Shown here piece by piece: positions 59,227 to 62,238 of a stretch of DNA of 64,000 nt. Origin of the DNA: Halovenus carboxidivorans (lineage in GTDB: Archaea > Halobacteriota > Halobacteria > Halobacteriales > Haloarculaceae); NCBI RefSeq assembly GCF_009831575.1, contig NZ_WUUT01000003.1, positions 184,748 to 248,747 on the forward strand. Reading direction: 5' to 3'. The position numbers and the translations under genes were made by a program. The stretch's first letter is position 1. Every line of letters begins with the position of its first letter. Below the pieces are notes generated by a model. The model was not told the origin of the DNA. It did no database searches and saw only the letters and a program-made list of their open reading frames with translations.

Positions 59227-59306
59227 TTCGCGGTCCGGCGACCACCTAAAAAACCGCCGTAAGCGCAGTCCGCGGAATTATGTACCGGCTCGAACAAAGC
59301 CCGGGT

Positions 59307-60479
59307 ATGCGAGACGTATATCTCGTCGGGGCAGGACAGACCCCGTTCGGCTCGTTCCCCGAACGGAGCTACCGCGACCTGTTCGCGGAAGCGTACCAGA
59401 ACGCACGGGAGAGCGTCGACAGCCCGCCGGACCCGGAGGAGATCGACGAGGCAGTCGTCGGTTCGCTGGGCGTCGGCGGCCGGCAACTCGGCCTGTCGGG
59501 ACCGGCAGTCACCGAACACGTCGGCCTGCACAACGTCACCTGCTCGCGGATCGAAAACGCCTGTGCGGCGGGCGGGTTCGCCGTTCGACAGGCGATTCAG
59601 GCGGTCAAAAGCGGCATGGCCGATGTCGTCCTCGCGGGCGGCTACGAGGTGATGACCGACATGTCCAGCGACGCGACGAAGTACTGGCTCGGCGTCAGCG
59701 GGGAAACCGAGTGGGAACGACTCACCGGCACCACCTTCGCGGGCGTGTACGCACAGATGGCCAGCGCCTACCTCGACCAGTACGAGGCGACGACGGAGGA
59801 TCTCTCCCGCGTCGCGGTGAAAAACCACGGCAACGGCGCGAAGAACCCGAAGGCCCACCTCGGGTTCTCCTGCTCGCTCGAGGACGCGGTCAACGCGCCC
59901 GACGTGGCCGCGCCGCTGAACCTCTATCACTGCTGTCCGACCTCCGACGGCGCGGCGGCGGCGCTGTTCGTCAGCGAGGATGTCGTCGACCAGTACAGCG
60001 ACGAACGAATCCGCGTCGCCGGCTCCGGCGGCGCGAGCGACCACGTCGGCCTCGCCGAGCGGGACAGCTACACCTCGCTGTCGGCGACGAAAGCCGCCGC
60101 CGAGTCCGCCTACGAGGGGGCGGCGGTCGGTCCCGACGACCTGGATTTCGCCGAGGTACACGACTGTTTCGCAATCGCCGAGCTGGTCGCCTACGAGGAT
60201 CTCGGCTTCTGTGAGGAGGGGCAGGCCCACACGCTGCTCCGGGAGGGGCGAACCGACCCGGACGGCGATCTGCCGGTCAACACCTCCGGCGGACTGAAAT
60301 CGAAGGGCCATCCCATCGGCGCGACCGGGACCGGCCAGGTCGTCGAGGTGTTCGACCAACTCACCGGCAACGCCGGCGAGCGACAACTGGACGATCCGAC
60401 GCTCGGGTTGACCCACAACGTCGGCGGGAGCGGCGGGGCGACAGCGATCCACATCTTCGAGCAGGAGGTGGCGCGATGA
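59307..60479 (+). CDS. Thiolase-family acyltransferase (SCP-x-like)
   Basis: The product is 390 residues from ATG 59307 (an ATG at 59280 is also possible). RDVYLVGAGQTPFGSFPE opens the fold. The nucleophile Cys is in RIENACAAGGFAVRQAI (about residue 85), and the second active-site block is LKSKGHPIGATGTGQ (His, about residue 336). THNVGGSGGATAIHIF is the SCP-x-type C-terminal block. It condenses or cleaves acyl-CoA. Its stop overlaps by 4 nt the start of an HMGS-like/DUF35 fusion. In methanogens an archaeal thiolase, HMG-CoA synthase and DUF35 protein form one complex, so these two probably bind each other. Confidence 0.92.
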   Translation: MRDVYLVGAGQTPFGSFPERSYRDLFAEAYQNARESVDSPPDPEEIDEAVVGSLGVGGRQLGLSGPAVTEHVGLHNVTCSRIENACAAGGFAVRQAIQAVKSGMADVVLAGGYEVMTDMSSDATKYWLGVSGETEWERLTGTTFAGVYAQMASAYLDQYEATTEDLSRVAVKNHGNGAKNPKAHLGFSCSLEDAVNAPDVAAPLNLYHCCPTSDGAAAALFVSEDVVDQYSDERIRVAGSGGASDHVGLAERDSYTSLSATKAAAESAYEGAAVGPDDLDFAEVHDCFAIAELVAYEDLGFCEEGQAHTLLREGRTDPDGDLPVNTSGGLKSKGHPIGATGTGQVVEVFDQLTGNAGERQLDDPTLGLTHNVGGSGGATAIHIFEQEVAR

Positions 60480-61891
60480 CGGGCATCGACCAGATCGGGA
60501 CCTACGTCCCGCGGTACGCGCTGGCCGCCGAGGCCGTCGAGGAGGCCTGGGGACAGTTCCACGGCGCGGGGATCGAACACACGGCCGTCCCCGGCGGCGA
60601 CGAGGACACGCTGACGATGGCCTACGAGGCCGCGACGAACGCCATCGAGGCTGGCGACCTCGACCACACCGCGTTCGAGAGCCTGCTCGTTGCGACGACG
60701 ACCCCGCCGCTGGAGGAGGAACCGATGGGCGCTCGGCTCCGGAGCACGCTCGGTCTCGACGACTCGATCCGGACGCGACAGCTCACCGGGAGCACGCGTG
60801 CGGGTGTCGAGGCGCTCGTGACCGCCGCGGAACGGTCCGGGCCGACCCTGGTCGTCGCCAGCGACAGCCCCCGCGGTGCGCCCGACAGCGACCTCGAACA
60901 GGCCGGCGGGGCGGGTGCGGTCGCTCTCGTCGTCACCGACGACGGCACCGCCGAGATGACCGACCACGCGGCCCGCGTCGACGCCGTTCCGGGGACGCGG
61001 TTCCGGCCCGCCGGATCGGACGAGAGCGACGGCCTCGGAATCGCGACCTACGACCGAAACGCCTACACCTCGGCGGTCGGCGGCGTCGCTGCCGATCTCG
61101 ATACCGATCCCAGTGAGTTCGCGGCCGTCGCGTTGCAGGCCCCGAACGGCAAACTCCCGTACCGGGCGGCCGGCGCTCTCGGCGTCGAGACGGAGACCAT
61201 CGCGGCGGGAACCAACGTCTCCGAGATCGGTGACACCGGCGCTGCGAGTCCGCTGTTCGGGCTGGCGACGGCACAGTCGGCGGCCTCGACGCTCGTCGTC
61301 GGGTACGGCTCCGGTGACGCCGCTGCCGTCGCAATCGAGGGGTCGATCCCGGTTGCGACGAATCCACACGACGGGATCGTTCCCGAGGACCGACGCTCGC
61401 TGAACTACGGCGAGTACCTCCGAATGCGCGGGGAGATCACGACGGGCGAACCCGAGGGGGGCGGTGCATACGTCAGCGTCCCGAGCTGGAAACGCACCAT
61501 GCCCCAGCGCCACCGACTCGTCGCCGGCCGGTGCACAGAGTGTGGCACGCTCGCCTTCCCGCCGGAGGGTGCCTGTACCGACTGCGGGACTTTCGAGTCC
61601 TACGAGTCGGTCGAACTGCCGGGGACGGGGACGGTCGAGGCGGCGACGGAGATCGGTGCCGGCGGCGCGCCCCCGGAGTTCGTCGAACAGCAGGCCAAAA
61701 GCGGTGCCTACACCAGCGCCGTCGTCGCGCTTGACGGTCCCGACGGGGGATCGGTCTCGATTCCGGCACAGGTCCTCGGCGACGGGGAGACGACCGTCGG
61801 CGACCGCGTGACCGCGACGATTCGGCGGATCTACACCCAAGAGGACGTGATCCGCTACGGCTTCAAGATGCGACCGCTGGCGGAGGACTGA
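60476..61891 (+). CDS. HMG-CoA-synthase-like protein fused to a DUF35 OB/zinc-ribbon domain, apparently without catalytic residues
   Basis: The product is 471 residues. Residues 1-335 follow archaeal HMG-CoA synthase (IDQIGTYVPRYALAAE, then a long thiolase fold). Residues about 340-470 are a DUF35 domain: zinc ribbon CTECGTLAFPPEGACTDCG and an OB fold. Where synthases have the Glu in S-E-S/T-x-P, the nucleophile Cys in F-A-C-K-A-G-T-E-A-L and the His in H-Q/x-P-N-G-K, this protein shows TTTPP, GSTRAGVEAL and QAPNGK, so E, C and H seem replaced by T, T and Q. It may scaffold the thiolase. Overlap with the thiolase gene supports a stable complex. Confidence 0.88.
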   Translation: MTGIDQIGTYVPRYALAAEAVEEAWGQFHGAGIEHTAVPGGDEDTLTMAYEAATNAIEAGDLDHTAFESLLVATTTPPLEEEPMGARLRSTLGLDDSIRTRQLTGSTRAGVEALVTAAERSGPTLVVASDSPRGAPDSDLEQAGGAGAVALVVTDDGTAEMTDHAARVDAVPGTRFRPAGSDESDGLGIATYDRNAYTSAVGGVAADLDTDPSEFAAVALQAPNGKLPYRAAGALGVETETIAAGTNVSEIGDTGAASPLFGLATAQSAASTLVVGYGSGDAAAVAIEGSIPVATNPHDGIVPEDRRSLNYGEYLRMRGEITTGEPEGGGAYVSVPSWKRTMPQRHRLVAGRCTECGTLAFPPEGACTDCGTFESYESVELPGTGTVEAATEIGAGGAPPEFVEQQAKSGAYTSAVVALDGPDGGSVSIPAQVLGDGETTVGDRVTATIRRIYTQEDVIRYGFKMRPLAED

Positions 61892-61962: not shown

Positions 61963-62238
61963 ATGGCAGAATCAACCGAACTCGAAACCGAGACGGAGCA
62001 CACGCCCGAAGAGGCCGCGGAGCTGTTCCGCGATCTCGCCGACGAGATCGAATCCGGTGAAGACATCACCGTCACCGGGAACAACGCCGAGATCACCGTT
62101 CCCGGAACCGTCGAGAAGATCGACTCCGAACTCGAAGTCGAACACGAGATCCGCGGCGAGTACGACCAGGTGATGCTCGAACTCGAACTCGACTGGACGA
62201 TCATTCCCGACGAAGACGACGATCACTCCGAGGAGTAA
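61963..62238 (+). CDS. Amphi-Trp domain protein (91 aa)
   Basis: The product is 91 residues: ELETETEHTPEEAAELFRDLADEIESGEDITVTG then beta strands with VMLELELDWTII (motif blocks). This fits the amphi-Trp domain, a short alpha-plus-beta module common in haloarchaea. Its function is not established. The start ATG at 61963 follows a TTG-opened frame; the closing tail is very acidic (PDEDDDHSEE). It is convergent with the OYE-family gene (16-nt overlap of the two stops' region). Confidence 0.8.
   Translation: MAESTELETETEHTPEEAAELFRDLADEIESGEDITVTGNNAEITVPGTVEKIDSELEVEHEIRGEYDQVMLELELDWTIIPDEDDDHSEE

Follow-up and report, generated by a model that had tools for sequence, protein, structure and literature searches.

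A thiolase paired with a fused HMG-CoA-synthase-like/DUF35 protein without the synthase catalytic residues: a putative two-gene catabolic thiolase in haloarchaea

In the acetoacetyl-CoA thiolase (AACT)/HMG-CoA synthase (HMGCS)/DUF35 complex of methanogens, the DUF35 protein links thiolase to HMGCS, and both enzymes share a CoA site in the 6ESQ structure (PMC12329534). Substrate contact in PhlABC is made by the thiolase-like PhlC alone; the HMGCS-like PhlA carries Gly115 in place of the Cys and Cys83 in place of the Glu and is thought to be required for assembly (PMC6392133). The haloarchaeal PhaA/BktB enzymes combine a thiolase with a Ser-His-His active site and a co-located OB-fold subunit required for activity (PMC7137286). 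In DUF35-linked aldolases (Ltp2, Sal), Tyr replaces His in a YDxF/Y motif (PMC12329534).

The window, by which we mean the whole 64,000-nucleotide stretch of Halovenus carboxidivorans DNA analysed here, contains a thiolase gene followed by a gene for an HMGCS-like protein fused to DUF35, hereafter the partner. Residues of the partner were mapped on the solved archaeal synthase 6ESQ_I, and the residue counts out of 50 refer to dereplicated haloarchaeal fused relatives. The features are as follows.

59307 to 60479, forward strand: thiolase of the archaeal AACT/SCP2 type, 390 amino acids from the ATG at 59307
60476 to 60479, forward strand: 4-bp ATGA overlap between the thiolase stop codon (60477-60479) and the partner ATG (60476)
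60476 to 61891, forward strand: partner open reading frame, HMGCS-like/DUF35 fusion, 471 amino acids
60476 to 61441, forward strand: HMGCS-like domain, residues 1-322, without the Glu/Cys/His triad and without any Cys (NF003274, 6ESQ_I alignment, structure match)
60698 to 60700, forward strand: Thr75 at the catalytic Glu position (GSESHP aligns with ATTTPP); Thr or Ser in 50 of 50
60794 to 60796, forward strand: Thr107 at the nucleophilic Cys position (FACKAG aligns with GSTRAG); Thr in 49 of 50
61136 to 61138, forward strand: Gln221 at the catalytic His position (FHQPNGK aligns with LQAPNGK); Gln in 42 of 50
61232 to 61234, forward strand: Asp253 at the conserved Asn position (LGN aligns with IGD); Asp in 50 of 50
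61502 to 61879, forward strand: fused DUF35, residues 343-468, zinc ribbon (Cys 353, 356, 367 and 370) plus OB fold (PF12172, PF01796)

The thiolase, for which an alternative, longer open reading frame begins at 59280, scores 437.9 bits against NF004720, above the cut-off of 420, and its closest PDB match is the methanogen thiolase 6ESQ_A (E 3e-88), PhlC reaching only about 1e-29. Its active site is a complete Cys-His-His set, with the nucleophile Cys86 (59562-59564) in ENAC and the two histidines in HDCF and GHP. An identity as a DUF35-linked aldolase is disfavoured because the thiolase motif reads HDCF where Tyr would be expected. A thiolase gene thus adjoins an HMGCS-like gene with DUF35, as for the archaeal AACT/HMGCS/DUF35 complex, with DUF35 fused in this case. 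An earlier, sequence-only reading of this locus had proposed that the thiolase keeps its own nucleophilic Cys, which the intact motifs bear out, and that the two genes are translationally coupled; the 4-bp overlap behind the second proposal is present, and coupling is what such an overlap would suggest.

The fold of the partner is that of an HMGCS. The NCBIfam archaeal HMGCS model NF003274 spans residues 2-322 (E 8e-43), 6ESQ_I is the best solved relative of this part, and residues 1-322 of the AlphaFold model, which is modest for the fused protein (mean pLDDT 66), superpose on 6esq_I with a Z score of 30.2 and an rmsd of 4.7 over 300 aligned residues, as expected of an HMGCS/KAS-III-like thiolase fold. 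The partner stays under every HMGCS equivalog cut-off (147 bits against 244 for NF003274, 79 against 353 for TIGR00748 and 15 against 800 for NF041302). The structural comparison covered residues 1-333, and the DUF35 assignment comes from sequence: zf-ChsH2 covers residues 343-373 (E 1.4e-8), OB_ChsH2_C covers residues 379-449 at 22.2 bits (E 1.3e-4), under its cut-off of 27.1, and a 13-sequence profile finds the DUF35 chain 6ESQ_E as the best solved match of the C-terminal part (E 2.5e-16).

Since structural tools return ranges and not residue pairs, the residue mapping was made by sequence alignment; a single-sequence HMMER search, the 13-sequence HMMER profile and two MAFFT alignments gave identical positions. 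The replacement of Glu, Cys and His by Thr, Thr and Gln, already proposed in the sequence-only reading together with a retained HMGCS fold and a fused DUF35 OB/zinc-ribbon domain, was recovered in all alignments against archaeal HMGCS, and the retained domains are borne out by the matches above, that to OB_ChsH2_C lying below its cut-off. All four cysteines of the partner lie in the zinc ribbon, at residues 353, 356, 367 and 370, so residues 1-342 offer no candidate nucleophile. An intact triad elsewhere in the protein was considered and ruled out on the same ground, the first Cys being at residue 353. A loss of HMGCS catalysis by the partner is supported by these alignments, and while both enzymes of the archaeal complex are catalytic, here the thiolase motifs are intact and the HMGCS-like triad is gone.

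One intact haloarchaeal HMGCS is encoded on another contig of the same genome (NF041302, 869 bits, cut-off 800), with the catalytic Glu, Cys, His and Asn present, so mevalonate synthesis needs no contribution from the window protein. This second synthase, whose existence the sequence-only reading had named as a check, supports its view that the pair works outside mevalonate synthesis, as does the occurrence of relatives in phenylacetate and beta-oxidation clusters described below. The fold and a gene order like that of the methanogen complex might still suggest a functional HMG-CoA synthase whose catalytic residues have gone unrecognised; this reading is barely credible given a domain devoid of Cys through residue 342, scores far under the equivalog cut-offs and the separate intact enzyme. 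Three further SCP2-type thiolases are present in the genome (L160, 8791-10310; L162, 7688-8857; L163, 8273-9406), with Cys, Ala and Ser, respectively, at the nucleophile position, and a DUF35 gene follows the one with Cys.

Across the class, 265 of 391 haloarchaeal genomes match the partner at E 1e-5, and subtracting 23 weak or partial matches leaves strong relatives in 242. We aligned 93 fused or split relatives, comprising haloarchaeal proteins (fused, or split in two genes), proteins from two other archaeal families of the phylum, f15 and f31, and sequences from five bacterial plasmid records. Neither the Glu nor the Cys is found in any of the 93 and the His is kept in two; nearly all have Thr or Ser where the Glu would be, and the Cys and His positions vary by group. 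A 68-row tree, for which midpoint rooting alone was used, separates 54 degenerate proteins from 14 others, namely the intact archaeal synthases, PhlA and the MucABC chain 9VBO_A, the last being a long branch (support 100/97). A catalytic Cys is general in the thiolase superfamily, and the residue loss is therefore the derived state. As read from these alignments, the dead state is no local decay and is shared by an old and wide clade spanning archaea and bacteria.

The live thiolase accompanies the clade. The neighbouring thiolase has Cys-His-His in 90 of 92 degenerate loci, the other two being truncated at the Cys, and in a thiolase tree made by a quick method, 28 haloarchaeal partner thiolases group together (SH-aLRT 99), apart from thiolases adjoining an intact HMGCS. 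In one genome (G010, L155), two degenerate HMGCS-like genes share a neighbourhood, with a thiolase near each. A mirror case was found in archaeal families f5, f11 and f15, where an intact HMGCS with Glu and Cys motifs adjoins a thiolase with Asp for the nucleophilic Cys; these thiolases (L060-L064, L102, L195-L198) read VEAADASGG, and HDS for HDC, in all nine genomes read, whereas the nucleophilic Cys is present in 21 of 21 genomes of the other families. The f15 genomes additionally encode the degenerate fused protein paired to a live thiolase, and in one f24 genome (G462, L211) a thiolase adjoining an intact HMGCS has Asn for the His of the GHP motif.

The partner is under purifying selection. 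Against the nearest Halovenus relative, dN is 0.136 and dS 0.912 (dN/dS about 0.15); the corresponding values for the thiolase are 0.041 and 0.832 (dN/dS 0.05). The loss of all three residues in an HMGCS-related family could in principle mark a pseudogene or an ancestral HMGCS complex that has recently decayed, a reading to which we give practically no credence: dN is well under dS, the frame is open, 242 of 391 genomes carry a strong relative and the same loss extends across the clade, which together refute it. The synthase-like domain changes more quickly than either the thiolase or the DUF35 part, and within it Thr75, Thr107 and Asp253 are better conserved than 77-92% of the columns among the 50 dereplicated haloarchaeal proteins. 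This conservation, with Thr or Ser at position 75 and Asp at 253 in all and Thr at 107 in all but one, is what would be expected if the domain had gained a new activity or a substrate-binding role at a Thr/Thr/Gln/Asp pocket instead of being a pure scaffold. We regard this reading as unlikely, since beyond the haloarchaeal group the Cys position is occupied by Met, Phe, Ala, Gln or Leu and the His position by Ser, Tyr, Val, Pro or Ala, and since the domain as a whole changes faster than its thiolase and its DUF35 part.

The gene context of the relatives points to catabolism. A codon-usage script supplied the gene calls, which were then clustered, and reference members of the clusters were named with NCBIfam; PaaA, PaaB, PaaC, PaaD, PaaK and PaaI exceeded their cut-offs among the reference members. 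At 19 of 38 haloarchaeal loci PaaA/B/C/D or PaaK lies within 9 genes, and at 29 of 38 an enoyl-CoA hydratase or 3-hydroxyacyl-CoA dehydrogenase is nearby; a FadA-type thiolase, a possible enzyme of the PaaJ step, is also present at 11 of the 38. A strong partner match is found in 179 of 186 PaaA-strong genomes versus 63 of 205 genomes lacking a strong PaaA match (odds ratio 58 by Fisher test, with no correction for kinship; genome lists copied over from the two search outputs). The H. mediterranei pair, E6P09_RS16140 and RS16145, adjoins genes for PaaK, MaoC, a thiolase, 3-hydroxyacyl-CoA dehydrogenase and enoyl-CoA hydratase. Four of the five bacterial plasmid relatives lie amid acyl-CoA genes, two of them (Rhodococcus and Variovorax SRS16) next to genes for ring-hydroxylating dioxygenase and enoyl-CoA hydratase and two (Variovorax VAI-C and Sphingobium) amid acyl-CoA dehydrogenase and MaoC genes; the Novosphingobium relative lies amid SDR and amidohydrolase genes.

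The window locus itself has none of the acyl-CoA or paa-type neighbours found around relatives: on its upstream side lies a gene for a histidine-kinase-like protein, and on its downstream side lie genes for an Amphi-Trp protein and an FMN oxidoreductase. The Amphi-Trp domain gene (61963-62238), just 3' of the pair, is not common to other haloarchaeal loci. The genome encodes five 3-hydroxyacyl-CoA dehydrogenase relatives; it contains no match to PaaA, and for PaaK only weak ligase matches far under the cut-off, so a paa role cannot hold in this genome and was rejected there.

Two known types of biosynthetic thiolase partnership were weighed against this context. In place of catabolic thiolysis, the pair could carry out PhlABC- or MucABC-like acylation of a small acceptor. 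Structure comparison places PhlA and MucABC chains among the nearest matches, the triad is missing from PhlA and from the MucABC chain as well, and IGDTGAASP of the partner resembles GDAGSASP of PhlA. We consider such an acyltransferase quite improbable, because both proteins branch with intact synthases outside the partner clade, the thiolase is far closer to the AACT 6ESQ_A than to PhlC and the gene context is catabolic. A haloarchaeal beta-ketothiolase for PHA synthesis, of the PhaA/BktB type, would likewise be made of two co-located genes, a thiolase and an OB-fold subunit needed for activity (PMC7137286), yet PhaA/BktB use Ser-His-His where the window thiolase has Cys-His-His, and the Ser-type thiolase of H. 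mediterranei, paired with a 120-amino-acid gene, branches apart from the thiolases of the pair; this reading is very unlikely, and identity with the published PhaA/BktB was rejected on the Ser nucleophile and the separate branch. H. mediterranei RS15515/RS15520 were linked to BktB/PhaA through the Ser nucleophile and not through locus tags. The H. mediterranei plasmid pHME505 carries two more pairs of a thiolase and a small OB or hypothetical gene (L115, 6521-8061 and 17866-19376), the second with a Ser nucleophile as described for BktB/PhaA.

From the observed residue loss, conservation, gene pairing and context, we infer that the pair is probably a two-gene catabolic 3-ketoacyl-CoA thiolase with a non-catalytic partner acting as scaffold or CoA-site subunit, the complex, the CoA contact and the substrate being putative. 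The thiolase would carry the chemistry through its Cys-His-His site and would be expected to cleave, or make, 3-ketoacyl-CoA. By analogy with PhlABC and the methanogen complex, from which we derive the picture of a non-catalytic, DUF35-docked partner completing the thiolase CoA site, DUF35 may dock onto the thiolase and help to wall its active site. The dead synthase domain would then occupy the place of the active HMGCS in the methanogen complex, where it probably completes a shared CoA-binding interface and fixes the quaternary structure. Thiolysis of 3-ketoacyl-CoA in catabolism is the most likely chemistry predicted for the pair. In many haloarchaea it may serve the breakdown of phenylacetate or related acyl-CoA compounds, and in those bearing paa genes it could perform the PaaJ step, for which it is a candidate. 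A pure scaffold need not keep Thr, Thr, Gln and Asp at the old active site, which leaves room for more. We only tentatively entertain, as doubtful, a broader proposal of pan-prokaryotic thiolases dependent on a fused pseudo-HMGCS/DUF35 subunit, whose Thr/Thr/Gln/Asp pocket would bind CoA or substrate and which would supply the phenylacetate thiolase step of haloarchaea.

These findings bear on annotation and on pathway models. A dead HMGCS partner is not confined to one antibiotic pathway, and instead characterises a whole archaeal and bacterial clade whose members are mostly fused to DUF35 and, where the site is readable, always adjoin a live thiolase. Because their annotations read 'zinc ribbon', 'OB-fold' or 'HMG-CoA synthase', these genes can be misassigned in models of mevalonate or phenylacetate metabolism. 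A 2026 survey reported archaeal phenylacetate pathways as incomplete (PMC13186573), and the pair is a candidate for one acyl-CoA step of these pathways.

Our literature search, which left most subscription journals outside, returned nothing on a pair of thiolase and fused partner, and several described systems resemble it in part. The archaeal AACT/HMGCS/DUF35 complex of M. thermolithotrophicus (6ESQ, 6ET9) has the same three folds, the same kind of thiolase and adjoining genes, but its HMGCS is catalytic and its DUF35 separate, whereas the window protein is dead, fused and on a separate branch. The benzoylsuccinyl-CoA thiolase BbsAB is likewise a catabolic thiolase with a DUF35 subunit, although BbsA, described by a model of 145 positions, has no HMGCS-like part. 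Haloarchaeal PhaA/BktB share the two-subunit organization with an OB-fold partner and differ in the Ser nucleophile and in a partner described by its OB domain alone. MucABC (9VBO, 9VBT) contains an HMGCS-like chain without the triad and a chain E related to thiolase, but the HMGCS-like chain lies on the other branch and shares 19% identity with the window protein over the aligned part. PhlABC (5M3K, 5MG5) likewise combines a dead HMGCS-like subunit without Cys and Glu, a DUF35 protein and an active thiolase-like subunit, and differs in its three separate genes, its biosynthetic acyl transfer and the position of PhlA among intact synthases. A thiolase with DUF35 and a dead HMGCS-like subunit is therefore already known from PhlABC, and a chain without the triad from MucABC; relative to the papers that could be searched, what is new here is that the HMGCS-like and DUF35 parts are fused, that the proteins form a clade of their own, how far this clade extends and the catabolic setting in which it occurs.
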